Origin: Mycolicibacterium mengxianglii
GTDB lineage: Bacteria > Actinomycetota > Actinomycetes > Mycobacteriales > Mycobacteriaceae
Direction of reading: 5' to 3'
Assembly (NCBI RefSeq): GCF_015710575.1
Contig: NZ_CP065373.1
Location: 5,890,001 to 5,954,000 of the forward strand
DNA: 64,000 bases
The position numbers were made by a program, and so were the translations under genes. Under the pieces are notes generated by a model. The model ran no database searches. It saw nothing but the letters and a program-made list of their open reading frames with translations, and was not told where the DNA came from. Shown here piece after piece: positions 28,890-45,089 of the stretch (positions are counted from its first letter, which is position 1; each line of letters opens with the position of its first letter).

Positions 28890-31073
28890 TCAGGAGACGA
28901 GTGCCCGTGCTGCCGCCTCGATCGAATCCTCCGACAGCAGCACCTCCAACGCCGCGTCCCCCAACGGGATGAAGCTGTCGGCACTGGCGACCCGGGCCAT
29001 CGGGCCGGTGAAGCCCCCGTCGACCAGCGCGGCAAGCACGCCCTCCCCGACTCCGCCGGTGGCTCGGGTTTCGTCGACGACCAGGACGCGGCCGGTGGCG
29101 TGGGCCTCTCGCAGCATGTCGACCGTCGGCAACGGGGCCAGCCAGCGCAGGTCGACGACCCGGCTGTGCACCCCGGCGCGCTCGAGCCGACGAGCCACCC
29201 GCAGGCTCATCCGCAGGCCGTTGCCGAACGTCAGGATGGTCAGGTCCCCACCCTCGCCATACGTTCGGGCGCGGCCGATACCGGCACCGGTTTCGCCGGC
29301 GCCCGGGTATTCGGCCAGCCAACCGCCGTCGCCGTCGTCGTGCAGGTCACGCGTGTGGTAGAGGGCGATGGGTTCGAGGAACAGGCAGACCGCTCCGGCC
29401 TTGTCGGCCGCGGCGACGCAGGCGTGCAACATCGCCGCGGCGTCGTCAGGACGTGCCGGGGACGCGATGACAACACCGGGGATGTCGCGGATCGCGGCGA
29501 TGGAGTTGTCGTTGTGGAAGTGGCCGCCGAACCCCTTCTGGTAGGCGTAACCGGCCACCCGCACCACCATCGGGTTGCGGTACTGGCGGTTGGAGAAGAA
29601 CTGCAAGGTGGCGCCCTCGCCGCGGATCTGATCGACCGCGTTGTGCAGATAAGCCAGGTACTGGATCTCCGGGATCGGCAGCAGCCCCGACACCCCGGCA
29701 CCCAGCGCCAGCCCGAGGATGGTCTGCTCGTCGAGCAGGGTGTCGAAGACCCGGGCGGGGCCGGCCTTGCCGAGCAGGCCGCGGGTGACGCCGTACACCC
29801 CACCTTTGCGGGCCACGTCCTCGCCGAAAATCAGCGCTTCCGGATGCGCCGCCATGACGTCCTGCAGCGCCCGGTTGATGGCGAGCGCCACCGTCAGCGG
29901 CGCCTGATCCCCGGTGGTGTCAGGTGTCGCTGCTGACGCGGACTGGGTGGCCTGCACCGCGTCATCGAGGGTCGCCTGCAGCGGCTCCATGACGGCCTTC
30001 GCCGATTCCAGCGGCGCGAGGTCCATGACCACCCGGGCCAGGTCGAGGACCTCGGCCCGTTTGGCCTCATAGCGCGCCACCACTTCGTCGGGGGTCAAGG
30101 CGCCGTGCTCGACCAGTAGTGCGGCGGTACGCAGCACCGGGTCGTGCTCGAAGTCGGACGTGATCTCATCAGGCTTGCGATAGGCGGGCTCGTAGTCCGA
30201 GCCGGCATGGCCCATCAGTCGCACGGTGCGCAGGTGCAGGAAGGCCGGGCGCCGGTGGGTACGCACCCAGGACGCCGCCGCACTGGCCGCGTCGAACGCC
30301 GATGGCAGGTCGCAGCCGTCGCCGTGGAAGTACTCCAGCCCGGCACGGTTGGCATAGGTGTTGGCGATCCAGCCCCGCGGTGTCTTGACGCTGATACCGA
30401 TGCCGTTGTCCTCGCAGACGAACAGCAGCGGCATCGGCAGGCCCTGGTAGGCGGCATGGAGCGCGGCGTTCACCGCGCCGACCGCGGTGGAGTGATTGGC
30501 CGAGGCGTCGCCGAAGCTGCACACCGTCACCGCGTCCGCCGGCCACGCACAGGGCACGCCGAGCTTCTTGGCGCGGGCGATCGAGAACGCCACCCCCACC
30601 GCGCGCGGTAGATGTGAACTGATGGTGGAGGTCTGCGGGATGACGCCGAGGTCGTGACGTCCGAACACCTTGTGCCGGCCGCCGGAGATGGGTTCCTCCG
30701 TGGCCGCCACCAGCCCCGCCAACACGTCGCGCAGGGCGTCGCTGCCCTCGACCTGCTGGGCTCGCGCAACGTAGAAGCTACCCGAACGGTAGTGCAGCAG
30801 AGCGGGATCCGTGGGGCGCAGCGCCGCCGCCACCGCCGCGTTGCCCTCGTGGCCCGACGAGCCGATGGTGTAATAGCCCTTGTCCTGCGCCCGCAACCAC
30901 CGCGCGGCGAGGTCGAGGTGTCTACTGCCCAGCTGCGCGTCGAAGAGGTCGACGGCCTGGCCCACGGTCAGCACCGAACCGGACCGGAGGGGCTCCGTCG
31001 CAGCCCGCCGGGCGGGCCGGCCGGTCATCTCGGCGACGGTGGTGGTGAAGTATTCGTCGATGGACTCGGCCAT
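28890..31073 (-). CDS. Thiamine-dependent 2-oxoacid dehydrogenase E1, fused alpha and beta subunits
   Basis: A 727-residue protein joining an E1-alpha part (residues about 1-370) and an E1-beta part (about 390-727) in one chain. The alpha part has the ThDP motif starting GDASANHSTAVG and ending CEDNGIG (GDA in place of the usual GDG). The beta part has FGEDVARKGGVYGVT and the transketolase C-terminal domain. Such E1s decarboxylate branched-chain or related 2-oxoacids, or acetoin, and need an E2 and E3, which are not in this window. It follows the acyl-CoA dehydrogenase by 41 bases on the same strand and looks like the last gene of the catabolic operon. Confidence 0.88.
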   Translation of the reverse strand: MAESIDEYFTTTVAEMTGRPARRAATEPLRSGSVLTVGQAVDLFDAQLGSRHLDLAARWLRAQDKGYYTIGSSGHEGNAAVAAALRPTDPALLHYRSGSFYVARAQQVEGSDALRDVLAGLVAATEEPISGGRHKVFGRHDLGVIPQTSTISSHLPRAVGVAFSIARAKKLGVPCAWPADAVTVCSFGDASANHSTAVGAVNAALHAAYQGLPMPLLFVCEDNGIGISVKTPRGWIANTYANRAGLEYFHGDGCDLPSAFDAASAAASWVRTHRRPAFLHLRTVRLMGHAGSDYEPAYRKPDEITSDFEHDPVLRTAALLVEHGALTPDEVVARYEAKRAEVLDLARVVMDLAPLESAKAVMEPLQATLDDAVQATQSASAATPDTTGDQAPLTVALAINRALQDVMAAHPEALIFGEDVARKGGVYGVTRGLLGKAGPARVFDTLLDEQTILGLALGAGVSGLLPIPEIQYLAYLHNAVDQIRGEGATLQFFSNRQYRNPMVVRVAGYAYQKGFGGHFHNDNSIAAIRDIPGVVIASPARPDDAAAMLHACVAAADKAGAVCLFLEPIALYHTRDLHDDGDGGWLAEYPGAGETGAGIGRARTYGEGGDLTILTFGNGLRMSLRVARRLERAGVHSRVVDLRWLAPLPTVDMLREAHATGRVLVVDETRATGGVGEGVLAALVDGGFTGPMARVASADSFIPLGDAALEVLLSEDSIEAAARALVS

Positions 31074-31114
31074 CGGGCCTCCTCGGGTTCGGTTCGGTTC
31101 TCGTCAGGGCCCCG

Positions 31115-32296
31115 TCAGCGGAAGGCGGGGGTGCCCGTGAGCGCCTGTCCGATCACCAACGTATGCATTTCCGAGGTGCCTTCGTAGGTCAACACCGATT
31201 CGAGGTTGTTGGCGTGGCGCATCACCGGATACTCCGAGGTGATTCCGCTGGCGCCGAGGATGGTGCGGGCCTCGCGGGCGATCGCGATCGCCTCCCGGAC
31301 GTTGTTCAGCTTGCCGAGGCTGACCTGCTGAGACGCCAGCGCGCCGGCGTCCTTCATCCGGCCCAGGTGCAGGGCCAGCAGCACCCCCTTGCCGTACTCG
31401 AGGGTCATATCGGCCAATTTGGCCTGCGTCAGCTGGAATCCGCCGATGGCCTTTCCGAACTGCTGGCGGGTGCGGGCATAGTCCAGCGCCGTCTCCAGGC
31501 AGTCACGGGCGGCTCCCAGCGCGCCGAACACGATGCCGAACCGGGCTTCGTTGAGGCAGCTCAGCGGTGCGCCCAGGCTGGTGGCACCGGGCAGCCGGGC
31601 AGACTCGGGCAGCCGCACATTGTCCAGGACCAGTTCACTGGTGACCGAGGCGCGCAGGGACATCTTCGATTTGATGGTGTGGGCGCTGAATCCCGGCGTG
31701 TCGGTGGGGACAGCAAAACCGCGGACACCCTCATCGGTGCGGGCCCACACGACGGCGACGTCGGCGACCGAACCGTTGGTGATCCACATCTTGGTGCCGT
31801 TGAGAATCCAGTCATCGCCGGAACGTACTGCCCGGGTACGCATTCCGGCCGGATCCGAGCCCTGGTCGGGCTCGGTCAGACCGAAACACCCGATGGCGCG
31901 CCCGGCCGCCATCTCGGGCAGCCACCGCTGCTTGGTCTCTTCGCTGCCGTAGCGGTGGATGGCGAACATCGCCAGCGATCCCTGGACGCTGACCAGGGAG
32001 CGCAGGCCCGAGTCGCCGGCTTCGAGCTCCAGGCACGCCAGCCCGTAGGCCACTGCGGAGGTGCCGGCGCAGCCGTAACCCTGCAGGTGCATTCCGAGCA
32101 GGCCCATGCCGCCGAGTTCGACGGCGAGGTCGCGGACCGGCAGTTCACCCTCTTCATACCAGGTGGCGATATCGGGTGCGATCCGCTGCTTCACCATGGC
32201 ACGCACGGCTTCGCGGATCTGGCGCTCCTCGTCATCGAGGAGGCGGTCCACCCCGACGAGGGTGTCGGGTGTGGTGGGCTCGGAAAGGCGGGACAT
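31115..32296 (-). CDS. Acyl-CoA dehydrogenase
   Basis: A 393-residue FAD enzyme. Blocks typical of the family are FGLTEPDQGSDPAGM, GTKMWITNGS, RQQFGKAIGGFQLTQAKLADM and the C-terminal ASGITSEYPVMRHANNLESVLTYEGT-type region, in which the Glu of TYEGT is the usual catalytic base of the glutaryl-CoA dehydrogenase group. That similarity would fit a C5 dicarboxylic product. A good AGGAGA site precedes ATG 32296, only 29 bases after the enamidase-like gene. Candidate role: oxidising a CoA ester from the opened ring. The CoA-activating step is not seen here. Confidence 0.92.
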   Translation of the reverse strand: MSRLSEPTTPDTLVGVDRLLDDEERQIREAVRAMVKQRIAPDIATWYEEGELPVRDLAVELGGMGLLGMHLQGYGCAGTSAVAYGLACLELEAGDSGLRSLVSVQGSLAMFAIHRYGSEETKQRWLPEMAAGRAIGCFGLTEPDQGSDPAGMRTRAVRSGDDWILNGTKMWITNGSVADVAVVWARTDEGVRGFAVPTDTPGFSAHTIKSKMSLRASVTSELVLDNVRLPESARLPGATSLGAPLSCLNEARFGIVFGALGAARDCLETALDYARTRQQFGKAIGGFQLTQAKLADMTLEYGKGVLLALHLGRMKDAGALASQQVSLGKLNNVREAIAIAREARTILGASGITSEYPVMRHANNLESVLTYEGTSEMHTLVIGQALTGTPAFR

Positions 32297-32325
32297 CGGG
32301 TCTCCTGGGGTAGTGGTTGGGCGGG

Positions 32326-33546
32326 TCAGCAGCAGCCGGAGGCCGGCGCCGTCGCGGGTCGGGGGGCGGCGGCCTGCTGTCGCCAGGTGACCGCACGGCT
32401 CGGTGGTGGTGTCTGCTGGCTACGCGAGGCCACCAGCGGCACACCGTCGACCAGCACGGTGGCGATGCCCGGAAGGTCGCCTGCGGCAAAACATTCCAGC
32501 CCGTTACGGGCAGACGAGCCGGTGATCGGGCCCAGCACCAGGAGATCGGCGGGCCGGCCCGGAGCGATCACCCCGGTGTCGAGTCCGTGAGCTCTGGCTG
32601 TCTGCCCGGTCGCCGCGGCGACGGCGGCCACCGGGTCCACCCCGCAGACCGAGGCAAGCAGGCAGATGTTGCGCAGCATGCCGCGCGGAATCACACCGGT
32701 GCCACCGGGAGTGTCGGTACCCAGGGTCAGCCGGTCGAGCTGACCTCGGCGATTCAGTTCCTCGGCAACCAGTTTGGTCACCCGGAAGTTCATCGAACTG
32801 CAGATCTCCAGAAATGCCGAGGGCACCTCGTCGATGATGGCGAGGATGTCCTCGTCGGGTGCGGGTATGGGGCCACCGGAAATGTGCCCGACGATGTCGG
32901 GTTGCACCGCGACCACGACGTCGCGGCCCGCGGGCCGGCTCGAACCGGATCGCGAGACCCCGCCCGAATGCATCTTCACCGTCATGCCGCGCTCATGGGC
33001 CCAGGCGACGTATTGCTGAGCTTCCCCGTCACCCAACCGATTCCAGTCGTAGAAGATGAACTTCAACTGGTCGATGCCCTCGCGGTGGGCCCGGTCGAAG
33101 TGTTCTTCGGTCATGCCGGGTACCAGCAGGATGGTTCCGGCGTTGACCTTGACGCCGGACGGGCGCATCCGGCCCGTGGTGTGCTTGGAGGTGATGGCGA
33201 TGCTGAGGACCAGCTCCGGTGTCAGCGCATCGAACGCCAGCCCCGGGATGTGCAGTTCGCCCGCCGACACCATGGACGTCGTGCCGCCGTGGAGGTAGTT
33301 ACCGATCCATCCGATGGCGTCCTGTGCCGGTGTCCACTCCCCGAATGTCGGATGGACATGTCCGTCGACCAGACCGGGCATCACCGTCAGCCCACCGGCC
33401 GACAGCACCTGATCGGGTGCGCCGTGTTCGGTACCGACACCAGCGATACGGCCGTCTTCGATCCACAGCGTGGTGTCGGTCTCCGGAGCGACCGCGGGGT
33501 CACCGTGCACCAGCAGACCGATGTCTTCGATCAAGAGTGTTGTCAT
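32326..33546 (-). CDS. Enamidase-like amidohydrolase
   Basis: A 406-residue amidohydrolase-superfamily enzyme. Metal-binding points are H63 and H65 in DGHVHP, later His in VKMHSGG and VGHISGG, and Asp in GTDTPGGTG. Its whole-length pattern (RPSGVKVNAG, MHSGG followed by GSS, GVIAPGRPADLLVL, AAGDLPGI) closely resembles, from memory, enamidase of anaerobic nicotinate degradation, which hydrolyses tetrahydro-6-oxonicotinate to 2-formylglutarate. ATG 33546 has AAAGGTG upstream, and an operator sits 17 bases before it. It heads an enamidase-ACAD-E1 sub-operon. A dihydropyrimidinase- or imidazolonepropionase-like role is possible but fits the motifs less well. Confidence 0.75.
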   Translation of the reverse strand: MTTLLIEDIGLLVHGDPAVAPETDTTLWIEDGRIAGVGTEHGAPDQVLSAGGLTVMPGLVDGHVHPTFGEWTPAQDAIGWIGNYLHGGTTSMVSAGELHIPGLAFDALTPELVLSIAITSKHTTGRMRPSGVKVNAGTILLVPGMTEEHFDRAHREGIDQLKFIFYDWNRLGDGEAQQYVAWAHERGMTVKMHSGGVSRSGSSRPAGRDVVVAVQPDIVGHISGGPIPAPDEDILAIIDEVPSAFLEICSSMNFRVTKLVAEELNRRGQLDRLTLGTDTPGGTGVIPRGMLRNICLLASVCGVDPVAAVAAATGQTARAHGLDTGVIAPGRPADLLVLGPITGSSARNGLECFAAGDLPGIATVLVDGVPLVASRSQQTPPPSRAVTWRQQAAAPRPATAPASGCC

Positions 33547-33563
33547 GACGCACCTTTCAACAA

Positions 33564-33580
33564 TTGGATACACTATCCGA
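33564..33580 (-). promoter_or_regulatory. GntR-type operator 1, upstream of the enamidase-like gene
   Basis: On the + strand it reads TTGGATACACTATCCGA, an inverted repeat with 7-base arms around 3 bases and one mismatch. Read toward the gene, its centre is TAGTGT, a good -10 box, ending 23 bases before ATG 33546. It overlaps the last codon of the upstream FUSC-type gene. One of four such sites in the cluster. Confidence 0.75.
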
Positions 33581-34616
33581 TATTGCGGCCAGAGGTCGGA
33601 GCGACCCGGCCCATCAGGGCCGGCACCGCGAAGACCACCAGCACCACCACCGCCGCGCCCAGCAGATTCATCGCCAGCCGCACCCCGCCCTCGTACCAGG
33701 GGAACCTCCCGGGGTACTCGCTGATGATCAACAGCACCGGTGGTCCGGTGACCGCCCACCAGGTGTAATTCACCGGCCGCAGTGCCATGGCGACGACGAA
33801 CAGCACCACCGCCGCCCAGATCACGACGAGTCCCGGCAGATCGGCACCGAGCAACCCCGCCGCCACGAGCGCGCCGACCGCGTTTCCCGAAAGCCTTTGC
33901 ACCAGGCGGACACCGGTCTGCACGGCGGCCGGTTGAATCGTCAGCACCACGCAGGTGACCAGCCAGTGCGCCCCTAGCAGGTCGGCGGGCAGACAGGCGG
34001 AGATGGTGACGGCCAGCGCCACCGCGGCACCGACGCGTAGCGCATGCGGCTCGAGCCGCGGGCTGCCATCGGCACCCACATCCTGCGGCGCCCGGCTGGA
34101 GGCAACACTTCCCTTGCCCGCCAGCATCACCGTCGCCCGCCAGCACAACCACGCCACCGGTACCACCGCGGCGCCCACTACGTAGGCGGGCATCTGAGAC
34201 CACTGCGCGGTATTGCCGGTGTCGACCGCGATGAGCACCACTGCCAACGCCGCCGTCGGTCCCAACGTAGGGCGCAGGGCGCCGATCACCGCCGCGACCA
34301 CGGTCGCCAACCCCAGGGCCACCGGATGGCCGGAGGTCAGCACCGCGACAATCGCGCCGCCGATCACGCCGGCACCCCGGGTGGTGATCGTGATCGCGGC
34401 CGCGCGGAACGACAACGGCAGCGTCGGTACGGCCGTCAGCACAAAACCCAGCCCGATGGCCGAGGCCAGTTGCGGATGGCCGCCGAACCCGGGCAACGCC
34501 AGGACGGCGGCCAGGGCCACTCCCAGAACCACCGCCATGCCCCATCGGCTACGCCCTACCGGTCGCAGCAATTCGGCGGGGTGGAACCGACTCACCGCGC
34601 GATGCTCAGCCGACAC
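33573..34616 (-). CDS. FUSC-family-like integral membrane protein
   Basis: A 347-residue membrane protein with about ten hydrophobic segments arranged as two similar halves, resembling the fusaric-acid-resistance (FUSC/aromatic acid exporter) family. These proteins export or permit passage of aromatic or organic acids across the membrane. GTG 34616 is the likely start. It lies 30 bases after the small molybdenum hydroxylase subunit gene and its stop codon is inside operator 1. I infer that it handles an intermediate or toxic by-product of the pathway. Confidence 0.75.
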   Translation of the reverse strand: MSAEHRAVSRFHPAELLRPVGRSRWGMAVVLGVALAAVLALPGFGGHPQLASAIGLGFVLTAVPTLPLSFRAAAITITTRGAGVIGGAIVAVLTSGHPVALGLATVVAAVIGALRPTLGPTAALAVVLIAVDTGNTAQWSQMPAYVVGAAVVPVAWLCWRATVMLAGKGSVASSRAPQDVGADGSPRLEPHALRVGAAVALAVTISACLPADLLGAHWLVTCVVLTIQPAAVQTGVRLVQRLSGNAVGALVAAGLLGADLPGLVVIWAAVVLFVVAMALRPVNYTWWAVTGPPVLLIISEYPGRFPWYEGGVRLAMNLLGAAVVVLVVFAVPALMGRVAPTSGRNIG

Positions 34617-34646
34617 GCGCAGACACGCCGAACTGCCGCCGGATCA

Positions 34647-35147
34647 CTAATCCGGGGGTGTAGCCGCGTCGAGTACCGCCTGCACGATGCCCTGGTAGCC
34701 GGTGCAGCGACAGATGTTCCCGGACAACGCTTCCCGCACCACCTCTTCGGTCAGTGGTTTCTCAGCGTCGGTATCGCGCAACAACTCGAGGGAAGACACC
34801 AGGAAACCGGGGGTGCAGAAACCACACTGCAAGCCGCCGTTCTCGCTGAAGCACTCCCGCAGCCGGGGGGTTTCGCTGAATGCGTCCAGCCCCTCGACAG
34901 TGCGCACCGACAGCCCGTCGACCTGAACCGCCAGCGTCAAACACGCTCGGGCGCTGCGGTCTTCGATGAACACCGAGCAGGCTCCGCACACACCGTGCTC
35001 GCACCCCAGGTGAGTCCCGGTCAGACCGAGCTCGTCGCGCAGGAAGTCCGCCAGTGTCTGTCGGGGCGGCACCGAGCGGCGAAACACCCGGCCGTTGACG
35101 GTGACGGAGACCGGCTGTGCCGGCACCGGCGGATCAGCGTCTGACAT
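34647..35147 (-). CDS. Molybdenum hydroxylase, small [2Fe-2S] subunit
   Basis: A 166-residue protein of the CoxS/xanthine dehydrogenase small-subunit type. The plant-type cluster is CEHGVCGAC with C49, C54, C57 and C69; the helical-domain cluster is held by C108 and C111 (GFCTPG) and C146 and C148 (CRCTGY). It passes electrons from the Mo site to FAD. ATG 35147 has GGAGG upstream and lies within the 3' end of the FAD subunit gene, so the two are coupled. An upstream in-frame ATG at 35174 is possible but has no site. Confidence 0.95.
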   Translation of the reverse strand: MSDADPPVPAQPVSVTVNGRVFRRSVPPRQTLADFLRDELGLTGTHLGCEHGVCGACSVFIEDRSARACLTLAVQVDGLSVRTVEGLDAFSETPRLRECFSENGGLQCGFCTPGFLVSSLELLRDTDAEKPLTEEVVREALSGNICRCTGYQGIVQAVLDAATPPD

Positions 35148-36009
35148 GGGCCGGATCCTCCACTCGCAGGGCACGGCGTGCGGCCGCGGACATGGCCTCG
35201 GTCAGCGCCGAGGCACACAATCGACGTGCATAATCGGTGTCGTCGGCGGCCGGTTCGGTCTGTGCGGCCCAGGTGTGGGCCAGCTCATCCCACAGCGTCG
35301 GATCCGGTTGTGCATCAATGGTTTCGGTGAACAACAGCGGACGGTCCGCGGCGCTGAGCACCGCCGCCCTCACGGTGTGCACCCGGCCGCGCGCATCGAG
35401 TGTCACCAGACACCCCGCACCCGCCAGCCCGTAATCGCCATGTTGGTGGGCGTATTCCACAAAACCCCAGCCCTGATCGGGACGGATCGCCGGGACCGAG
35501 ATCCAGGTGATCATCTCGTGCGGTTCCAAGGCGTTCTCGTAGAACGACACGAACATGTCCTCGGCAGGCACTTCCCGACGGCCGGACACAGCGGACTCGA
35601 CGTGGAACGTCGCGCCACACACCAGTGTCGCCAGAGGCATCTCCGCTGCCGGATCGGCGTGCGCGACCGAACCTCCGATGGTGCCCCGGTTGCGGATTCC
35701 GATGTGGCCGATGTAGCCGGCCGCGTCGGCGAGCAGCGGCGCCCGCGCGCCGATGAGGGGGTCGGTCTCCACGGCGCGGTGCGTCACCAACGCACCCAGG
35801 ACCACCCGGTCGACGTCATCAAAGACCCGGGTGAGCTCGCCGAGCCTGCCGATGTCGATGACCAGGCGGGGCCGGGCCAACCGCAGGTTCATCAGCGTCA
35901 ACAGCGACTGACCACCGGCCAGCAGCTTCGCATCCGGGTTATCCCGCAACAGTTCCAGCGCCTCGGCCACCGACTCCGGTCGCACGTAGTCGAATTCGGC
36001 CGGTTTCAC
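35134..36009 (-). CDS. Molybdenum hydroxylase, FAD-binding medium subunit
   Basis: A 291-residue CoxM/xanthine dehydrogenase FAD-domain protein. KLLAGGQSLLTLMNLRL is the first FAD-binding loop, and IRNRGTIGGSVAHADPAAEMP is the second (TIGGS). GTG 36009 overlaps the stop of the large-subunit gene as GTGA, so a fixed stoichiometry is likely. The order large-medium-small is seen in several actinobacterial molybdenum hydroxylase operons. Confidence 0.95.
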   Translation of the reverse strand: MKPAEFDYVRPESVAEALELLRDNPDAKLLAGGQSLLTLMNLRLARPRLVIDIGRLGELTRVFDDVDRVVLGALVTHRAVETDPLIGARAPLLADAAGYIGHIGIRNRGTIGGSVAHADPAAEMPLATLVCGATFHVESAVSGRREVPAEDMFVSFYENALEPHEMITWISVPAIRPDQGWGFVEYAHQHGDYGLAGAGCLVTLDARGRVHTVRAAVLSAADRPLLFTETIDAQPDPTLWDELAHTWAAQTEPAADDTDYARRLCASALTEAMSAAARRALRVEDPAHVRR

Positions 36010-38333: not shown

Positions 38334-39127
38334 CAATGGAGCCGCTTCTCCCACTGCCAAAGGGCGACGGAGATGGCGAAGGAGATGGTGATCAGCAGCA
38401 TGATGGTCGCCACCATCGACGGGTAATCGCCGTGGCTGTAGGACTGCAGCACCACCCGTCCCAAACCCCTTCTGGTGGCGAAGAACTCAGATAGCACCAC
38501 CCCGACCACCGACAGGCTGACCGCCAGCCGGATGCCGGTCAGCAACGGCCGTCGAATGGCCGGAAGGATGATGTGCACCAGCAGCTGCCAGGTGTTGGCT
38601 CGCACCGATTTGGCCAGCTTCCAGTACACGCGGGGGATTTCCTGCACACCGGTCGAGACGTTGATCAGCACGGGGAACAGGGCGAACAGCACACCCATGA
38701 CGACCTTGGAACCGGACAGGCTGAAGATCGGCAACAGCACCGGGTACAGCACGATCTTCGGCAGACCGTTGAGGATGATGATCATCGGCTCCAGCACCGT
38801 GCGCAGCCAGCTGAACAATCCCAGTGCCAGTCCGACGCTGCCACCGATGGCGGTGCCGATGACGAAGGCCATCAGCACCGACTGGGCCGTCACGCGCAAA
38901 TCGAACAGGTACGCCGGGTCCGACAGGTTCTGCGCGAGCACAACGGCCGTCTCCACCGGCGACGGGATGACGAACGTCAAACCGGAGAGGATCTCCCAGG
39001 CGATCAGCACCACGATCGCGAGCAGCGTCGAGCCGGCCAACTGGCTGCCCAGCAACGCGCGGATCCGGCTGGCGCGCGCCGGCTTTGGCACGGCGTCCTC
39101 GTCAGGACGCGGGAGTACCGCGGTCAC
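38333..39127 (-). CDS. ABC transporter permease (SsuC/TauC class)
   Basis: A 264-residue BPD-type inner-membrane permease with six hydrophobic segments. The EAA-like loop is in the central part (VYWKLAKSVRANTWQLLVHIILPAIRR read in pieces). Of the nitrate/sulfonate/taurine/pyrimidine importer class. GTG 39127 overlaps the preceding permease stop as GTGA. Two different permeases are used, so the complex is probably a heterodimer. Confidence 0.92.
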   Translation of the reverse strand: MTAVLPRPDEDAVPKPARASRIRALLGSQLAGSTLLAIVVLIAWEILSGLTFVIPSPVETAVVLAQNLSDPAYLFDLRVTAQSVLMAFVIGTAIGGSVGLALGLFSWLRTVLEPMIIILNGLPKIVLYPVLLPIFSLSGSKVVMGVLFALFPVLINVSTGVQEIPRVYWKLAKSVRANTWQLLVHIILPAIRRPLLTGIRLAVSLSVVGVVLSEFFATRRGLGRVVLQSYSHGDYPSMVATIMLLITISFAISVALWQWEKRLH

Positions 39128-39972
39128 AGGTTCCTCCCACGGAGCATCACACGCTCGAGCACAGACAGGATCACCGTCAGCAGGCCGGACAGCACCACCA
39201 CCACCACGATGTAGGCGAACATCTGGTTGTTGTCGAAAACTTCGTAGAGGTACCGGATGCGATAGCCGAGGCCGGCCTGGGCGGTGGTGAACTCCATGGC
39301 GATCGATCCGATGAGCGCATACACCACGGCCAGGCGCAGCCCGGCGGCGATGAACGGCCCCGCTGCCGGTATTGCGATGGCGAACAGCGTCTGTCGCGGT
39401 GAGGCGTTCAACGAGCGGGCCAGCTTCATGTAGACCGGCGGCATGGAGTTCAGCCCCACTGCGGTGTTGAGTGCCATCGGGATCGCGGCCATGATCGACG
39501 CCAGAATGATGACCGACGTCGCGTTGATACCGACCAGGACGATCATCACCGGGTAGAAGAGCACCAGCGGTACCGCGTAGAACGACACCAGGTAGGGCTC
39601 GAAGACCCGTCCCACCGTGGGGCGCTTCCAGAACAACAGCCCGGCGCTGAATCCGATCAGGCTGCCGGCCAGAATCGAGATCGACACCTCGATACCGGTG
39701 CGCGCGGCGTCAGTCCAGAACTGGCCCTGGGACAACATCGGTCCGAATTCGGCGAACACGACCGACGGTGCCGGCAGCACGTTGTCGCTCCACCACCCCG
39801 CCATGGAGCCCAGTTCGGCGAACGCGGTGAAGGCGAAGATCAGCAACAGCGTGGAGACCACGCTGATGGCGCCGCGGCTGCGCCAGCGCGGGTTCCGCGC
39901 CGCGGGCGGCGGCGGAGGCGGCGGCACGGCCTGGGCGGGCAGATCATCCTGGGCGACAAAGGAAGCCGTCAC
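39124..39972 (-). CDS. ABC transporter permease (SsuC/TauC class)
   Basis: A 282-residue permease with an unusual proline run near the N-terminus (AQAVPPPPPPPAARNPRWR) before the first membrane segment, six predicted membrane segments and an EAA-type loop. Same family as the next gene. GTG 39972 overlaps the ATPase stop as GTGA, so ATPase, permease and permease are translationally coupled. Confidence 0.92.
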   Translation of the reverse strand: MTASFVAQDDLPAQAVPPPPPPPAARNPRWRSRGAISVVSTLLLIFAFTAFAELGSMAGWWSDNVLPAPSVVFAEFGPMLSQGQFWTDAARTGIEVSISILAGSLIGFSAGLLFWKRPTVGRVFEPYLVSFYAVPLVLFYPVMIVLVGINATSVIILASIMAAIPMALNTAVGLNSMPPVYMKLARSLNASPRQTLFAIAIPAAGPFIAAGLRLAVVYALIGSIAMEFTTAQAGLGYRIRYLYEVFDNNQMFAYIVVVVVLSGLLTVILSVLERVMLRGRNL

Positions 39973-40769
39973 GAGGTGGCCGTCTCCTGTTGCTTGAAGC
40001 CGCGCATCGACTCTGCCTGCAGCGAGCTCCAGATCCGGTTGTGCAGTTCATTGAACCGCGGCGTCGACACCACCCCGGCGTCACGGGTGTCGGGTAGATC
40101 GATATCGACGACGTCGATGATGGTGCCGGGCCGGTAAGACATCACCCAGACCTGCTGTGACAGCAGGATCGCCTCGGAGATGTCATGCGTGACGAATACG
40201 ACGGTCTGCTTGGTGCTGGCCCAGATCTGTCGGACCTCCGCGCCGAGGAACAGCCGCGTCTGCTGGTCGAGCGCCGCGAACGGCTCGTCCATCAGCACCA
40301 CTTCGGGTCGCACCGCCAAGGTCCGCGCCAGCGCAACGCGCTGGCGCATACCGCCGGACAGCATTGAGGGGTAGGCCTTCTCGAATCCGTTGAGGCCGAC
40401 GAGTTCGACCGCCGCCTTGACCCGCTCGCGGCGCTGCGCCTTGCCGATGCCGATCATCTCCATGGCGAAGCCGACATTCTCCTCGACGGTGCGCCACGGC
40501 AACGTCGAGTCCTCTTGGAACACCACGCCGATCTTCGGGTCGGGACCGGTCACCGGCGTTCCGGCGACACTGGCCCGACCCGACGAGGCTTTCTGCAGTC
40601 CCGAGATCACCGCCAGCAGTGTGGACTTCCCGCATCCGCTCGGCCCGACTATGGACACGAAACTGGCATGCGGAACATGCTGGCTCACATTCGCGACGGC
40701 GGTGACCTTCCCGCCCGGAGTGTCGAAAACGACTGACACGTCTTTGAGTTCGATGCCTGGATTGTCCAT
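39969..40769 (-). CDS. ABC transporter ATP-binding protein (SsuB/TauB class)
   Basis: A 266-residue ATPase: GPSGCGKST Walker A, VFQEDSTLPWRTVEENV Q-loop, LSGGMRQRVALARTL signature, VVLMDEPFAALD Walker B and THDISEAILLS switch region. The SsuB/TauB/NrtD subfamily is plain from the EDSTLPW and DISEAI blocks. ATG 40769 is preferred; a TTG six bases upstream is an alternative. The binding-protein gene lies 39 bases upstream. Confidence 0.95.
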   Translation of the reverse strand: MDNPGIELKDVSVVFDTPGGKVTAVANVSQHVPHASFVSIVGPSGCGKSTLLAVISGLQKASSGRASVAGTPVTGPDPKIGVVFQEDSTLPWRTVEENVGFAMEMIGIGKAQRRERVKAAVELVGLNGFEKAYPSMLSGGMRQRVALARTLAVRPEVVLMDEPFAALDQQTRLFLGAEVRQIWASTKQTVVFVTHDISEAILLSQQVWVMSYRPGTIIDVVDIDLPDTRDAGVVSTPRFNELHNRIWSSLQAESMRGFKQQETATS

Positions 40770-40808
40770 CTTCAACGTCTCTTTCGATCTCTCGGGCGGT
40801 GACGGCTG

Positions 40809-41813
40809 TCAGAAGGTGGCGCGCGCGTCTTCGGGCAGGTACTGCTGATCCAGAACCGTTGCCCAGTCGATCGGAGCGTCGATCTGGCCCGCCTTGACCA
40901 TGAGATCTGACAGGTTCTTCAGACCTTCGGCGTCAACCTTCAGCGAGTACGCCTTGGCCATCTCCGGCGTCTGCTGGTACGCGGCCTTCATGACCTCCGG
41001 TGTCACTTTGATCAGGGGAGCGACTTCCAACGCAGCCTCGTCGGGGTTGGCGACCACCCACTCGTTGAGCCGGTCGACGACGGTGAAGAACGCCTTGACG
41101 TTGTCGGGATTGGCGTCGGCGTACTCGGTGTTGACGGCGACCAGGTCTGCGGGCAGATCGCCGAGTTCGTCACGGGAGTTCACCAGCACCTGGGCGCCCT
41201 CCTTTTCCTGCTTGTCCGCGATGAACGGCTGCATGGCCCAACCGGCGGTGATCTGGTCGGCCTTGGCCGCGGTCCAGTTGTCACCCATACCGCCGACGGC
41301 CTGGGCCTTGACGCCGAGCTTCTCCTCAAGTCCCTTGACGATCAGTTCGGTGGACGAACCCGCCGAGCTGAAGCCCAGCGTCGCACCGTCGATGCTGCGT
41401 CCGGGGGGGCTGATCCAGGAGAAGTCGTTGACCTGGAACCACGGCGCGATCACCTTGAGGTTCGAATTGGGCTGCTGTGCAGCCAGAATCACCGAGCTGT
41501 TACCGGCGATCGCCATGTCGGCGTCGCCGCTGGTGACCACGCGTAGAGTGTTTCCGCCGCCGCCGCCCGAGTAGAGGTCGACCGCAAGGCCCTCCTCCTT
41601 GAACCAGCCCTTGTCGATCCCGACCTGCAGGATGGCCATGAACGGCAGGCTGTCCACACCCGTGGCAGAGATGCTCAAGCTGTCCGTGGCCGAACCGGAT
41701 TCACTTGATCCCCCGGCTTCGGGCGCCTGCGACTCGTCAGCGCAGGAGGCGAGGCCAAGCGCCACCGCCAGCACTGAGATCAGCGTGAACAGTCTTTTCA
41801 AAAGTACGGACAA
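40809..41813 (-). CDS. ABC transporter substrate-binding lipoprotein (NMT1/SsuA class)
   Basis: A 334-residue solute-binding protein. TTG 41813 is chosen because GGAGG lies six bases upstream and because the resulting signal peptide ends in a lipobox, LASC, with C24 as the lipid anchor. Longer frames run through operator 2. Features of the NMT1/SsuA/THI5 fold are seen, such as LYSGGGGGNTLRVVTSGDADMAIAG in two parts. Members bind nitrate, sulfonates, taurine, hydroxymethylpyrimidine precursors or other small ring compounds; the ligand is not predictable from sequence. Confidence 0.92.
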   Translation of the reverse strand: MSVLLKRLFTLISVLAVALGLASCADESQAPEAGGSSESGSATDSLSISATGVDSLPFMAILQVGIDKGWFKEEGLAVDLYSGGGGGNTLRVVTSGDADMAIAGNSSVILAAQQPNSNLKVIAPWFQVNDFSWISPPGRSIDGATLGFSSAGSSTELIVKGLEEKLGVKAQAVGGMGDNWTAAKADQITAGWAMQPFIADKQEKEGAQVLVNSRDELGDLPADLVAVNTEYADANPDNVKAFFTVVDRLNEWVVANPDEAALEVAPLIKVTPEVMKAAYQQTPEMAKAYSLKVDAEGLKNLSDLMVKAGQIDAPIDWATVLDQQYLPEDARATF

Positions 41814-41838
41814 CTGAAACCTCCAGGAGGGTCGAATA

Positions 41839-41855
41839 TTGGATACAACATACGA
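41839..41855 (-). promoter_or_regulatory. GntR-type operator 2, upstream of the importer operon
   Basis: TTGGATACAACATACGA on the + strand. The gene-proximal arm is the conserved TTGGATA (TATCCAA as read by the gene); the distal arm is degenerate. In the direction of the binding-protein gene its centre is TATGTT, a TANNNT -10 match. It lies 25 bases upstream of TTG 41813. Confidence 0.65.
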
Positions 41856-41899
41856 TTGGCTGTGATCTACGTCAATGTTTGCGTCACGTGTCAGCACGC

Positions 41900-42187
41900 T
41901 CACCTGCGACGGCTGCCGCGGCGACGCAGCGTCAACAGGTGCGAGAGCTCAAGTCCGGCAGCGATTCCCAGCATCGCAGTGGCCGTGGTGAATCCGCGCA
42001 CCGAACCGACGGCGCCGGCTGAGGGGTCGGCAACCGGCGCGTTTTTGGCCGCCGACGCGGGCGCGGGCGCCACAAGGAGGCTGCCGTCGGCAGGGGTCAG
42101 CGCCCGCTTCAGCGGCGGCGGCGCGCCGGGTACCGCACTTCCGGGAGCCGGCAAGAGCGATTCCCTACCGGCCGCCTGATCGGTCAC
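41900..42187 (-). CDS. Small proline- and alanine-rich protein with one C-terminal membrane segment
   Basis: A 95-residue protein. The N-terminal two-thirds is Pro/Ala/Gly-rich and probably unstructured, ending in one hydrophobic segment (TTATAMLGIAAGLELSHLL) and a basic tail RRRGSRRR that would face the cytoplasm. Its ATG at 42187 overlaps the stop of the upstream LLM gene by four bases, which supports real coding despite low complexity. No family recognised. It may tether or stabilise a membrane partner in the cluster. Confidence 0.6.
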   Translation of the reverse strand: MTDQAAGRESLLPAPGSAVPGAPPPLKRALTPADGSLLVAPAPASAAKNAPVADPSAGAVGSVRGFTTATAMLGIAAGLELSHLLTLRRRGSRRR

Positions 42188-43179
42188 GACTGATTGTCGA
42201 CGATCTCGGCGAACGCGCGGATGGTGGGCGCCCTACTTTCACCGGGACGCACGAAGGGGACGATGGAGACCTGGTCGACACCCAGCGACTCGATCTGCTT
42301 GAGGCGCAGAGCGCATTCGTCTCGGGTGCCGGCCAGCGCGAACAGGTCGACCAACTCATCGGGCACCAGGTCGGCGTGCGATGCCTCCGTGTTCATGTGC
42401 TCGTAGTAGTTGTAGCTCTGTCGAATGCGGTCGATGGCGCTCTCCAGCTCAGGCTCCACCTGCGCCGGTAGCGGCCGAATGGCGACGCGAGAGACGTGAG
42501 CGCGCACCAGGTCTCGCGCCTCCTTGCGGTCGTCGCTGATCGCCGTCGGGGTCCACAGCACGATGTGGATGTCATCGAGGGTGCGGCCGCTCTCCGCAGC
42601 GCCCTCTTCGATGGTTTTCAGGGCCGCCTCGATGAAGTGCGGGGCCGTGCCGACGAGCACGATCACGCCGTCGGCGATGCGCCCGGACATCTTGAGGATC
42701 TTCGGGGCAGATGCCGCGATGTAGATCGGGATGTCGACCGGGGCGGTGAGGTAGTTCAGGTGGTACTCGGCGCCGCTGGTGGCTTCGCGGACCTTCTCGC
42801 CGCGGAACAACGTCCGCAATTGCGTGATGGATTCCTCGAGCTCGGCGAGCTTGAGGGGCTTGAGCCCCATGGTGCGCAACGACGAGTCACCGGTGCCGAT
42901 GCCGAGTGCGACTCGGCCGTCGGTCATTTCAGCCAGCGTGGCCCATGTCGACGCGAGCAGGGACGGGTGCCGGGTGACCGCGTTGGTGACCCCGGTGCCC
43001 AACACCACCTTGGTGGTGCCGACGGCTGCGGCCCCCATGACCGTCGAGGACTCTCGCCAGATGTTCTGCGAATCCCCGAACCAGACGTGGTCGTATCCCA
43101 ACGACTCACTCAACTGGACGTATTCGCACATCTTCGCCGCCGACTCGGTGGGGAAGAGTCCGACTCCCTTGCTCAACAT
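42184..43179 (-). CDS. LLM-class F420-dependent oxidoreductase of the catabolic cluster
   Basis: A 331-residue LLM TIM-barrel enzyme. MLSKGVGLFPTESAAKMCEY, DHVWFGDSQN, VVLGTGVTNAVTRHPSLLA and VALGIGTGDSSLRTMGLKP match the F420-dependent methylene-tetrahydromethanopterin reductase-like branch, which either oxidises substrates or passes a hydride from F420H2. A good AGGAGG lies before ATG 43179 and operator 3 lies 17 bases upstream. As the first gene of the cluster, it is a candidate ring reductase that would produce a reduced lactam for the enamidase. This role is inference only. Confidence 0.9.
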   Translation of the reverse strand: MLSKGVGLFPTESAAKMCEYVQLSESLGYDHVWFGDSQNIWRESSTVMGAAAVGTTKVVLGTGVTNAVTRHPSLLASTWATLAEMTDGRVALGIGTGDSSLRTMGLKPLKLAELEESITQLRTLFRGEKVREATSGAEYHLNYLTAPVDIPIYIAASAPKILKMSGRIADGVIVLVGTAPHFIEAALKTIEEGAAESGRTLDDIHIVLWTPTAISDDRKEARDLVRAHVSRVAIRPLPAQVEPELESAIDRIRQSYNYYEHMNTEASHADLVPDELVDLFALAGTRDECALRLKQIESLGVDQVSIVPFVRPGESRAPTIRAFAEIVDNQS

Positions 43180-43196
43180 CAGCTGGGCCTCCTAGG

Positions 43197-43213
43197 TTGG
43201 ATAGTGTATCCAA
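43197..43213. promoter_or_regulatory. GntR-type operator 3, divergent site between LLM gene and coxG-like gene
   Basis: TTGGATAGTGTATCCAA is a perfect inverted repeat (7-base arms, 3-base centre). Toward the LLM gene the centre reads TACACT and toward the coxG-like gene TAGTGT, both TANNNT -10 boxes, so one protein bound here could block both directions. This is the best copy of the four. Confidence 0.82.
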
Positions 43214-43267
43214 TCGTAGGCGGCGGTGGGGAAGCTCACAACCGGAAGCGACAAAAAGGTGGTCCAG

Positions 43268-43861
43268 GTGCAGCTCGTCAATACGTTTTCAGTGGACGCT
43301 CCGCTGCCGACGGCATGGAACACACTGTCCGACATCCCCCTCGTCGTGGCGTGTGTACCCGGCGCCGAACTGGAGGGACAGGACGGCGACGAGTACCACG
43401 CCCGGGTGGCAGTCAAGGTGGGTCCGGTTGGCCTCACCCTGGCGGGCAGCGCAACAGTGGTGGCCCGCGACGACGCCGCCCACCAGATGGTGGTGCGTGG
43501 CCGCGCAACCGACGCCAAGGGCAACGGCTCGGCCGAAGCCACGGTGACCATGGTCGTCACCGACAACGCCGGTCGTTCTGATGTCACCGTGACCACTGAT
43601 CTCGAATTAGGCGGCCGCATAGCACAATTCGGCAGCGGGGTGATCTCGCAGGTCAGCAATCGGATCCTCACCCAGTTCGCCAAGCGACTCAACGCCGCCA
43701 TCGCCGACCCGCAGGGTGCGGCGGGCACCACGATCACCCACACACCCTCCCCCGCCAACCGCCACCGTGGGAGCCGCGACGTCACCCAGCTGTTGGCGAC
43801 AGCTCTGGCCGGGGTGGCTCTCGGTCTGGCTGTCGGCCGGCTGGTGCAGCGCGCTCGTTGA
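43268..43861 (+). CDS. CoxG-like SRPBCC-domain protein with C-terminal membrane anchor
   Basis: A 197-residue protein. SRPBCC/CoxG domain occupies about residues 1-150: FSVDAPLPTAWNTLSDIPLVVACVPGAEL is the conserved start. A final hydrophobic segment (LLATALAGVALGLAVGRLV) with a basic tail would anchor it in the membrane. In carboxydotrophs CoxG recruits CO dehydrogenase to the membrane; here it probably does the same for the molybdenum hydroxylase, linking it to respiration. GTG 43268 is chosen because AAGGTGG lies just upstream; GTG 43226 is in frame. Convergent with the RidA-like gene. Confidence 0.85.
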   Translation: MQLVNTFSVDAPLPTAWNTLSDIPLVVACVPGAELEGQDGDEYHARVAVKVGPVGLTLAGSATVVARDDAAHQMVVRGRATDAKGNGSAEATVTMVVTDNAGRSDVTVTTDLELGGRIAQFGSGVISQVSNRILTQFAKRLNAAIADPQGAAGTTITHTPSPANRHRGSRDVTQLLATALAGVALGLAVGRLVQRAR

Positions 43862-43862
43862 G

Positions 43863-44324
43863 TCAGGGTTCAAGCGCGGCAACAAGTTCGAGCTCCACGC
43901 AGGCTCCACCGGGTAACGAAGCCACTCCGATGGCGGTACGCGCGTGCGCACCCACCTGCTCGCCGAATACCGCGACAAGCATCCGGGAGGCCCCGTCGAT
44001 GACCGCCGGGTGCGAACCGAAATCTGTTGTTGCCCTTACGTACCCCCGCAGGTGAAGCACGGCTGTCACGGCATCCAGGCCGACTGCGGCGTCGATGGCC
44101 GCCACCAGATTGAGCGCCGCGTTCTCGGCTTGAACCTGCGCCTGCTCGATCGTGACATCATCGCCCACCACGCCGAGCACACCGGGGTCCGCACCCCGGC
44201 GCGCTGTGGTTCCAGAAACCCAGATCTGATTGCCGCACAACCGGCTCGGCGAGTAGGCACCTTTCGGTGTCGCGGGCTCGGGCAATGTCAGACCCAACCG
44301 CGCGAAGCGCTCCTGCGGCGTCAC
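43863..44324 (-). CDS. RidA/YjgF-family protein
   Basis: A 153-residue RidA-type protein: YSPSRLCGNQIWVSGTTA near the N-terminus, QAQVQAENAALNLVAAIDAA, then VLHLRGYV and the C-terminal strand ARTAIGVASLPGGACVELEL (Glu of VELE is the family active-site region). RidA relatives hydrolyse reactive enamines or imines to carbonyl compounds and ammonia, or serve as detoxifying partners. GTG 44324 overlaps the gntR stop as GTGA, so it is co-translated with the regulator. In context it may deal with an enamine or imine product of ring opening. Confidence 0.9.
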   Translation of the reverse strand: MTPQERFARLGLTLPEPATPKGAYSPSRLCGNQIWVSGTTARRGADPGVLGVVGDDVTIEQAQVQAENAALNLVAAIDAAVGLDAVTAVLHLRGYVRATTDFGSHPAVIDGASRMLVAVFGEQVGAHARTAIGVASLPGGACVELELVAALEP

Positions 44325-45055
44325 AGCTTGGTTGCTTCCTGTTCCTCTTGGCCAAATGCCAGCGTGAGATGCTCCACGGCGTGCGCCCGATGCTGGTTGT
44401 TGAGCAGCACAGCCCGGTCGGTATCGCGCGCCTCGATGGCGTCGACGATCAACAGGTGCTCGGTGTTGACCTGGGTCAGATCCATCAGGTGCGCGTACAG
44501 CGGCCGATAGGCATCGGCGGTGTTCCACAGCTGGTTGACGATGCGTTTCGTGCGCGCCATCTGGCTGTCCTGATAGGTCAGGTGGTGGAACCGCCGGTTG
44601 GCGATACCGACCGCGACAAGATCCTCCACCGCGGCGGCAGCGTCCATTTCAGCCATCGCTTCTCGCATCTCACGGACCGCCGCGTCGGTCATCCGGGGCA
44701 TCGCGTCTCGGATCAGTTCTTCTTCCAGAATGTTGCGTAGCCGGAAAACCTCTGTGAGCTCAGCAAGACTCAGCTTGGTCACCCGGTATCCGCTGTGCGG
44801 CACGTAGGTGATGTACTCCTCGGCCTCCAGCGTTTTCAGCGCTTCCCGGATCGGGATCCGGGACACCCCGAACTGCTCGGCGACCGACTCCTGCACAATC
44901 CAGCTCCCCGGCGGGAGTTTGCCGGTGGTGATGTCTTCTCGCAATGCCTCCGCGACAGCCTGCTGCGCGGTCTTGGGCCGAACGAAATCAGCCCGCTGAC
45001 CGGCATTTCGATCGGTGCGCGCGGGTGCGCGTGGAGTGGAGGCTCGCGGTGACAT
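44321..45055 (-). CDS. GntR-family (FCD subfamily) regulator of the catabolic cluster
   Basis: A 244-residue regulator with an N-terminal winged helix (PPGSWIVQESVAEQFGVSRIP) and a C-terminal all-helical FCD domain with the usual metal-ligand His residues (ANRRFHHLTYQ, TEHLLIVDAIEARD, NNQHRAH). ATG 45055 has AAAGGCGG upstream; an in-frame ATG at 45073 overlaps operator 4 and is unlikely. Four palindromes of one type, including one before its own gene, suggest this protein is the repressor, released by a pathway compound. Co-transcribed with the RidA-like gene. Confidence 0.93.
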   Translation of the reverse strand: MSPRASTPRAPARTDRNAGQRADFVRPKTAQQAVAEALREDITTGKLPPGSWIVQESVAEQFGVSRIPIREALKTLEAEEYITYVPHSGYRVTKLSLAELTEVFRLRNILEEELIRDAMPRMTDAAVREMREAMAEMDAAAAVEDLVAVGIANRRFHHLTYQDSQMARTKRIVNQLWNTADAYRPLYAHLMDLTQVNTEHLLIVDAIEARDTDRAVLLNNQHRAHAVEHLTLAFGQEEQEATKL

Positions 45056-45072
45056 CGGTCCGCCTTTCGACA

Positions 45073-45089
45073 TTGGATACTCTATGCGA
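45073..45089 (-). promoter_or_regulatory. GntR-type operator 4, upstream of gntR
   Basis: TTGGATACTCTATGCGA on the + strand. The gene-proximal arm is perfect and the distal arm has two mismatches to the palindrome. Read toward gntR its centre is TAGAGT, a -10 match, 17 bases before ATG 45055. It would make the regulator autoregulated. Confidence 0.7.

Follow-up and report, generated by a model that had tools for sequence, protein, structure and literature searches.

We examined a 64,000-nt window of Mycolicibacterium mengxianglii NZ_CP065373.1 (genome 5.96 Mb, single contig). On balance, we read one gene cluster within it as a GntR regulon whose products would import a pyridine-2-carboxylate, most likely picolinate, and degrade it completely, with all enzyme functions predicted. 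The node of the pathway is, with high probability, 2-oxoadipate, and picolinate is its probable parent substrate. Slightly more tentatively, we suggest that Actinobacteria have a dedicated reductive picolinate pathway comprising molybdenum (Mo) hydroxylation, F420H2-dependent pyridone reduction and enamidase-type ring opening, with F420 synthesis genes in the same run in Knoellia, and with three interchangeable lower branches: a 2-oxoacid dehydrogenase E1 with glutaryl-CoA dehydrogenase (GCDH), HglS with a hydroxyglutarate dehydrogenase, or a thiamine diphosphate (ThDP)-dependent decarboxylase with an aldehyde dehydrogenase.

The proposed pathway would begin with import of the acid by an SsuABC-class transporter. 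A Mo hydroxylase, probably tethered to the membrane by a CoxG-like protein, would then oxidise C6 to give 6-hydroxypicolinate, as its family suggests; hydroxylation adjacent to the ring nitrogen is a usual reaction of these enzymes. An LLM-class oxidoreductase, probably an F420H2-dependent ring reductase, would perform a two-electron reduction of the pyridone to the cyclic enamide 6-oxo-1,4,5,6-tetrahydropicolinate, and a Knoellia locus supports the use of F420. A relative of enamidase would open the amide to 2-aminohex-2-enedioate/2-iminoadipate, from which either the same enzyme or a RidA-like protein, which fits the imine or enamine released at ring opening, may free ammonia to leave 2-oxoadipate, a product to which exchanges of neighbouring genes point. 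A fused E1, with E2 and E3 encoded elsewhere, may convert 2-oxoadipate into glutaryl-CoA, and GCDH would yield crotonyl-CoA; a FUSC membrane protein may export surplus acid. An earlier sequence-only reading of this DNA had put import, Mo hydroxylation, ring reduction, amide opening and CoA-level oxidation in this order for a substrate it called unknown. The order fits the evidence in outline, and the downstream genes, which point to 2-oxoadipate, narrow the substrate to a pyridine-2-carboxylate rather than nicotinate.

Gene content and shared operators

The cluster runs on the minus strand from 45073 to 28890 in the order GntR/FCD, RidA, LLM, binding protein, ATPase, two permeases, Mo large, FAD and FeS subunits, FUSC_2, enamidase relative, GCDH and fused E1. 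The CoxG gene, between LLM and RidA, is the sole plus-strand member. An SDR gene and a glucosylglycerate hydrolase flank the cluster at one side and leuS at the other. Family profiles recovered every gene named by the sequence-only reading (SsuABC-class importer, Mo hydroxylase, enamidase-like hydrolase, F420/flavin oxidoreductase, E1, CoxG, RidA and GntR); its acyl-CoA dehydrogenase holds as to family and is refined here to GCDH, and its list lacked FUSC_2 (34616-33573). The features are as follows.

28890..31073, minus strand: fused alpha/beta 2-oxoacid dehydrogenase E1, proposed 2-oxoadipate E1 (PF00676, PF02779, PF02780)
31115..32296, minus strand: GCDH (matches to 3sf6 and 1siq)
32326..33546, minus strand: enamidase-like amidohydrolase, 406 aa, proposed 6-oxo-1,4,5,6-tetrahydropicolinate hydrolase (2vun match)
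33563..33576, plus strand: operator before the enamidase gene, exact ATTGGATACACTAT
33573..34616, minus strand: FUSC_2 membrane protein, possible aromatic-acid efflux (PF13515, E 2.4e-10)
34647..35174, minus strand: Mo hydroxylase 2Fe-2S subunit (PF01799, PF00111)
35134..36036, minus strand: Mo hydroxylase FAD subunit (PF00941)
36006..38360, minus strand: Mo hydroxylase large subunit, proposed picolinate 6-hydroxylase (PF02738, PF20256, PF01315)
38333..39127, minus strand: ABC transporter permease (PF00528)
39124..39972, minus strand: ABC transporter permease (PF00528)
39969..40775, minus strand: ABC transporter ATPase (PF00005)
40809..41813, minus strand: SsuA/NMT1-type substrate-binding lipoprotein (PF09084)
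41838..41851, plus strand: operator before the binding-protein gene, 2 mismatches
42184..43179, minus strand: LLM-class oxidoreductase, Mer-like, proposed F420H2-dependent 6-hydroxypicolinate reductase (PF00296)
43201..43214, minus strand: operator between the LLM and CoxG genes, exact, inverted repeat TTGGATA-CAC-TATCCAA
43226..43861, plus strand: CoxG-like protein with hydrophobic C-terminus, candidate Mo-hydroxylase anchor (PF06240, 52.7 bits, E 4.7e-14)
43863..44324, minus strand: RidA/YjgF-like protein, candidate 2-iminoadipate/enamine deaminase (PF14588, PF01042)
44321..45055, minus strand: GntR/FCD-family regulator (PF07729, PF00392), with an operator 17 nt upstream of 45055
45072..45085, plus strand: operator before the GntR gene, exact ATTGGATACTCTAT

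For the regulator, a start at 45055 is more likely than the open reading frame (ORF) opening at 45073; RidA starts at 44324, overlapping the stop of GntR. A TTG at 41813, preceded by a Shine-Dalgarno-like GGAGG, was preferred over the ORF opening at 41903 for the binding protein. The mechanical ORF start of the enamidase gene at 34545 was rejected, its extension being a shadow over FUSC, and 33546 was adopted; a minus-strand ORF at 43785-43192 (594 bp) was likewise rejected as a shadow of CoxG. The nearest solved structures of the Mo large subunit are 7dqx and 1t3q, and it carries the motif QYRGAGR, which we take to be the form-II signature.

The shared operators are real and beyond chance. 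The pattern ATTGGATACWCTAT has three exact copies genome-wide, all in the cluster (33563, 43201 and 45072), which bears out the sequence-only claim that shared operators tie these genes together. With up to two mismatches it occurs at seven sites in the 5.96-Mb genome, four of them in the cluster and three outside, each of the latter with two mismatches; the control pattern, read backwards, gave five genome sites, the mismatches of which were not itemised. A related pattern matched four times in the window, against 0.17 expected. The three sites other than that at 43201 keep the TATCCAA arm and have a poorer second arm. Among related Mycobacteriaceae (up to two mismatches, tallied by eye), a site precedes LLM in all 18 loci that hold its start, the enamidase gene in 21/22, the binding-protein gene in 13/19 and GntR in 6/6. 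No operator was found upstream of GCDH and E1 at the two-mismatch threshold, and these two genes would be transcribed by read-through from enamidase. A single GntR-controlled regulon fits this evidence.

The predicted 2-oxoadipate node

From its sequence, the identity of the cluster acyl-CoA dehydrogenase as a GCDH is well supported. It matches GCDH 3sf6 at 711 bits and 1siq at 381 bits, whole length (presumably the M. smegmatis protein and human GCDH, respectively), and in the alignment to 1siq the ELE-DSG-RS and TYEGT segments are aligned with the substrate residues kept, given the substrate-binding roles that we assume for residues in these segments. For both GCDH and the fused E1, a single gene was found in the window genome; seven other acyl-CoA dehydrogenases that were matched are 29-36% identical, and HglS was not found in this genome.

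A scan of contigs with the window enamidase yielded 45 loci, 22 from Mycobacteriaceae, 13 from other Actinomycetota, 9 from Pseudomonadota and 1 from Chloroflexota. All come from a single seed-pattern scan that used the window protein as query, and distant relatives are accordingly under-sampled. Neighbours were counted within 10 kb of the enamidase gene, less at contig ends, with percent thresholds set by eye. Contig ends truncate L012, L019, L020, L023, L028 and L032, and at least one flank is shorter in L026, L041 and L042. Genes were called with a simple codon-score caller, and Pfam was run on 50 neighbour proteins, part of the unlabelled ones.

In five loci HglS (PF07063) adjoins the enamidase gene, namely in Mycolicibacterium bacteremicum (L023), Sphaerisporangium (L027), Nonomuraea (L029), Georgenia (L036) and a Chloroflexota metagenome-assembled genome (MAG; L046); the latter locus also carries a GCDH. 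In the available part of the source, HglS of Pseudomonas putida is described as active only on 2-oxoadipate among the acids tested, a specificity ascribed to Arg74, and its authors predict that members retaining the equivalent residue are 2-oxoadipate-specific (PMC7286885). The H-x3-R motif is present in all five cluster copies, in four by regular expression and in the Chloroflexota copy, which is short and unlike the others, by eye. Across the 45 genomes HglS occurs in 12 (14 genes), E1 in 31 and GCDH in 32. That 5 of the 14 HglS genes adjoin enamidase has a chance of about 6e-11 under independent placement with kinship ignored, and the HglS label needs at least three changes on the tree. In M. 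bacteremicum and Georgenia, which carry HglS in the cluster, genome-wide searches found neither E1 (E<=1e-100) nor GCDH (E<=1e-110); the M. bacteremicum contig stops just past enamidase, but its whole assembly was searched. In Sphaerisporangium and Nonomuraea the gene after HglS encodes a FAD/Fe-S protein, and the Sphaerisporangium copy is closest to the D-2-hydroxyglutarate dehydrogenase YdiJ, at 482 bits against a cut-off of 1350. A pair resembling GlcD/GlcF in the Chloroflexota locus also scores below cut-offs.

A third arrangement has a gene of ThDP decarboxylase type near enamidase (L033, L037, L040 and L041). In Planosporangium and Streptomyces it lies, with an aldehyde dehydrogenase gene, between GntR and enamidase (Pfam was run on the Streptomyces copies), and in an Alphaproteobacterium and an Acetobacteraceae MAG a ThDP enzyme is encoded nearby. 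These differing neighbours, E1 with GCDH, HglS or a ThDP decarboxylase, point to 2-oxoadipate as the common metabolite. A cyclic enamide that gives 2-oxoadipate has its carboxyl beside the nitrogen, so by structure the parent ring would be picolinate or quinolinate, not nicotinate; on the same structural grounds the enamide would be 6-oxo-1,4,5,6-tetrahydropyridine-2-carboxylate and its parent pyridone 6-hydroxypicolinate, derived from picolinate by hydroxylation beside the nitrogen.

The nearest solved structures of the LLM protein are F420-dependent methylene-tetrahydromethanopterin reductases (Mer), and it falls below the cut-offs of 25 NCBIfam families among the matches listed (29 matched). 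In Knoellia aerolata (L092:4606-13909) a plus-strand run encodes Mo large, FAD and FeS subunits, LLM2, TauE, GCDH (75% identical), E1, CofGH, CofC and RibA, of which the last three exceed their NCBIfam cut-offs: CofGH at 1444 bits (cut-off 1018), CofC at 121 (105) and GTP cyclohydrolase II/RibA at 231 (148). Genes for F420 supply inside this run support F420 use in the pathway, at the level of the pathway rather than of a particular enzyme. LLM2 is the second LLM gene of this locus and the TauE-like gene encodes a transporter; CofGH, CofC and RibA lie directly 3' of E1.

A number of observations weigh against a picolinate pathway centred on 2-oxoadipate. The ThDP enzymes and hydroxyacid dehydrogenases gave no specific function over a cut-off, and an annotated ThDP-binding protein is also encoded in a Thermomicrobium cluster whose enamidase relative branches outside the window clade, so that having such a neighbour does not single out this clade. 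The cluster has no E2 or E3. E1 lies away from the cluster in five genomes (L024, L025, L027, L029 and L031), a second GCDH occurs in 17/22 mycobacterial genomes, and HglS is found away from the cluster in four mycobacteria with a cluster E1 (L008, L009, L021 and L047). A second HglS gene, lying apart from the cluster, occurs in M. bacteremicum and Nonomuraea; the Sphaerisporangium and Nonomuraea genomes hold HglS, E1 and GCDH together, and Pseudonocardia acaciae (the L031 genome) has E1 and neither GCDH nor HglS. At six loci (L024, L025, L031, L032, a 5.6-kb contig, L034 and L035) there is no HglS, GCDH or E1 at enamidase, E1 being 13.5 kb away in L034, which has isochorismatase as a flanking gene. 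The nearest annotated flanks of these six are VTT, amino-acid kinase, PucR, isochorismatase, amidohydrolase, terpene synthase, esterase and others, and give no hint of a pathway. Seven further loci (L038, L039, L042-L045 and L049) have other neighbours, and the wider enamidase clade may serve other substrates.

The enamidase relative and rival substrates

The best solved relative of the window hydrolase is the enamidase of Eubacterium barkeri (2vun; E 5.6e-82, 279 bits), aligned end to end (residues 2-386 versus 2-383). The two proteins have identical letters at all five columns of HxH, H, H and D, which we take to be the metal ligands of enamidase. At the strand-4 position, presumed to hold a bridging Glu ligand, Lys stands in 46/46 rows of the window clade and in 8/12 others; Glu is found in E. 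barkeri, Sulfitobacter (L064) and two Nocardiaceae plasmids (L059 and L060). Two columns separate the groups. After PG, Arg is present in 12/12 outside rows and in none of the 46 window-clade rows (Leu in the window protein, Arg in E. barkeri), whereas after IP it is present in 46/46 window-clade rows and in none of the 12 outside. The Arg after PG is a possible contact of the substrate carboxylate, and the moved arginine may follow a moved carboxylate. In a tree of 58 rows the window clade comprises 46, the window protein and 45 relatives (support 100/99); the tree has several long branches and a weak outgroup root (93/69). The E. barkeri enamidase is its sole characterised enzyme, and among the 58 rows no clade uniting the window protein with a characterised non-heterocycle enzyme was seen, an outcome that the sequence-only reading had named as refuting its proposal.

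Enamidase relatives occur in 25 plasmid records, with 35-41% identity among the 20 matches listed; phage records gave no match. Six plasmid records were read, and two have a Mo-hydroxylase gene nearby (Sulfitobacter and Thermomicrobium). On a Sulfitobacter pontiacus plasmid a 36%-identical enamidase lies beside an annotated 6-hydroxynicotinate reductase and a Mo hydroxylase, in what looks like a nicotinate-type cluster. A Thermomicrobium roseum plasmid (L063) has a further catabolic cluster, in which a 38%-identical relative is found among Mo-hydroxylase, GntR, ABC transporter, enoyl-CoA hydratase, AMP-ligase and ThDP-binding genes.

Quinolinate (pyridine-2,3-dicarboxylate) is an unlikely substrate. 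Its C6 hydroxylation, reduction and opening would give 2-oxo-3-carboxyadipate (oxaloglutarate), and CO2 loss would yield 2-oxoadipate. The same genes suffice, with no added decarboxylase, as beta-keto acids lose CO2 readily, and this second way to 2-oxoadipate counts against picolinate as the parent. Quinolinate takes more assumptions than picolinate, however; nothing in the cluster is direct evidence of a second carboxylate, and the cluster does not separate the two acids.

Nicotinate breakdown by the E. barkeri/Azorhizobium route, through 6-hydroxynicotinate, THON, 2-formylglutarate, glutarate and glutaryl-CoA with GCDH last, is quite unlikely. The best solved enamidase relative does come from this route, and GCDH could serve its glutarate. 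THON, the nicotinate isomer of the enamide, opens to 2-formylglutarate in the part of PMC9304392 available; nicotinate is disfavoured because E1, HglS and ThDP decarboxylase, which act on 2-oxoacids absent from this route, have no use for that product. Nicotinate, to which the enamidase comparison of the sequence-only reading would lead, was set aside once HglS, 2-oxoadipate-specific in P. putida, turned up beside enamidase. Additionally, the cluster has no CoA ligase, the Sulfitobacter 6-hydroxynicotinate reductase as query had no match in the window genome at E<=0.001 (a search run without positive control), and the residue signature is opposite to that of the E. barkeri and Sulfitobacter enzymes.

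Very unlikely, in our view, is the chance adjacency of two unrelated modules, in which E1 and GCDH, as genes of lysine/glutarate metabolism, would simply adjoin a nitrogen-heterocycle cluster of unknown product. E1 and GCDH genes do lie elsewhere in many relatives, and several loci are without such genes at enamidase; against this, HglS or ThDP genes take that place in other lineages, the Knoellia run again brings GCDH and E1 together with Mo, LLM and F420 genes, and in the window both come after the operator-bearing enamidase. Most improbable of all is a lysine-derived ring, in which piperideine-6-carboxylate would pass through 6-oxopipecolate (Mo enzyme) and F420-linked LLM dehydrogenation to the same enamide and 2-oxoadipate: it shares the end point, and the Sciscionella E1 adjoins an amino-acid permease and a DAO-type oxidase, but it is roundabout where a semialdehyde dehydrogenase would do, and 7dqx and 1t3q, the two best solved Mo-subunit relatives, act by name on aromatic N-heterocycles.

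Known pathways and distribution of the cluster

The proposed picolinate pathway resembles the reductive nicotinate pathway of E. barkeri and Azorhizobium in Mo hydroxylation beside the nitrogen, partial ring reduction and hydrolysis of a cyclic enamide. It differs in that the cluster would use LLM/F420 in place of 6-hydroxynicotinate reductase, and in that its neighbours point to 2-oxoadipate, not 2-formylglutarate. Azorhizobium runs the THON route as an aerobe, and Sulfitobacter is an aerobe. Enamidase clusters outside anaerobes are thus not new as such, given the Sulfitobacter enamidase beside 6-hydroxynicotinate reductase; the sequence-only reading had remarked that the enamidase chemistry of anaerobic nicotinate breakdown seems placed in an aerobic mycobacterium, an arrangement for which the Sulfitobacter plasmid and Azorhizobium are precedents. 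The new part is the predicted reductive route to 2-oxoadipate. Azorhizobium is reported to degrade via THON by a route called anaerobic in the accessible part of PMC9304392.

The pic pathway of Alcaligenes faecalis and Bordetella (PicA-PicG) shares the predicted first step from picolinate to 6-hydroxypicolinate. According to the portion of PMC10142695 at hand, it continues oxidatively through the monooxygenase PicB, the decarboxylase PicC and the ring dioxygenase PicD; none of these three was found among the cluster genes by Pfam or NCBIfam. The lower half is like lysine catabolism via 2-oxoadipate (HglS in Pseudomonas and plants; 2-oxoadipate dehydrogenase with GCDH), which leads to glutaryl-CoA or 2-hydroxyglutarate, but here the 2-oxoadipate would derive from a pyridine ring. 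KpiC of Arthrobacter is also a pyridine ring-opening enzyme of the Amidohydrolase-1 family, 28% identical to the E. barkeri enamidase in the available text of PMC7356986; it differs in being oxygenolytic and in acting on 3,4-dihydroxypyridine. No reductive or F420-linked picolinate route was found by title or start of abstract in the Creative Commons-licensed PMC literature, subscription papers lying outside this scope.

If true, the pathway would provide picolinate genes for Gram-positive bacteria, give F420 a new role, in the breakdown of nitrogen heterocycles, and add a second specificity to the enamidases; it also suggests what the fused E1 of actinobacteria may act on. As picolinate is a chelator of metals that animals and microbes make, the route may be relevant to soils and hosts. 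As far as the available part of PMC10142695 goes, Gram-positive picolinate users are reported in Arthrobacter, Streptomyces and Rhodococcus, while the pic cluster, investigated in Alcaligenes, is predicted to occur in Proteobacteria.

Among named organisms, Mycolicibacterium and Mycobacterium have the closest relatives of the window enamidase gene. A close enamidase (at least 80% identity) is encoded in 26/248 genomes of the genus, the window genome included and one partial, and two more have a relative at 37-38%. In a sample of the class, a threshold of E<=1e-60 retained 8/394 genomes, of which three match at 82-100% and the other five at 38-39%. Gene neighbourhoods, which the sequence-only reading had proposed to compare, are conserved across Mycobacteriaceae, and their upper part also across other Actinomycetota. 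In these two groups, respectively, LLM lies near enamidase in 18/22 and 12/13 loci, the Mo large subunit in 20/22 and 9/13, and permeases in 20/22 and 10/13; the corresponding counts are 22/22 and 0/13 for FUSC, 20/22 and 1/13 for E1, and 18/22 and 1/13 (Planosporangium, L033) for GCDH. GntR is present in 11/13 other Actinomycetota loci and in mycobacteria lies mostly outside the fetched stretch; all five extended mycobacterial loci hold GntR and RidA.

Several loci show local peculiarities. Mycobacterium sp. PO1 (L048) keeps GntR, RidA, CoxG and the permeases, and LLM, binding protein and ATPase were not found between CoxG and the permeases. In L006-L021, E1 is followed at 11 loci by a gene for a CoA-transferase III and at 10 loci by one for an acyl-CoA thioesterase, but by neither in the window; the transferase comes nearest to 2-methylfumaryl-CoA isomerase, short of the cut-off, and we drew no evidence from it. 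The enamidase relatives of L042 and L043 share similar gene surroundings, and the annotated neighbours in L043 (LLM, ornithine-cyclodeaminase/mu-crystallin, rhodanese and MarR) suggest another substrate for this sub-branch. In the window itself, the glucosylglycerate hydrolase gene (26796-28136; NCBIfam NF047898, 764 bits, cut-off 550) lies beyond the SDR gene.

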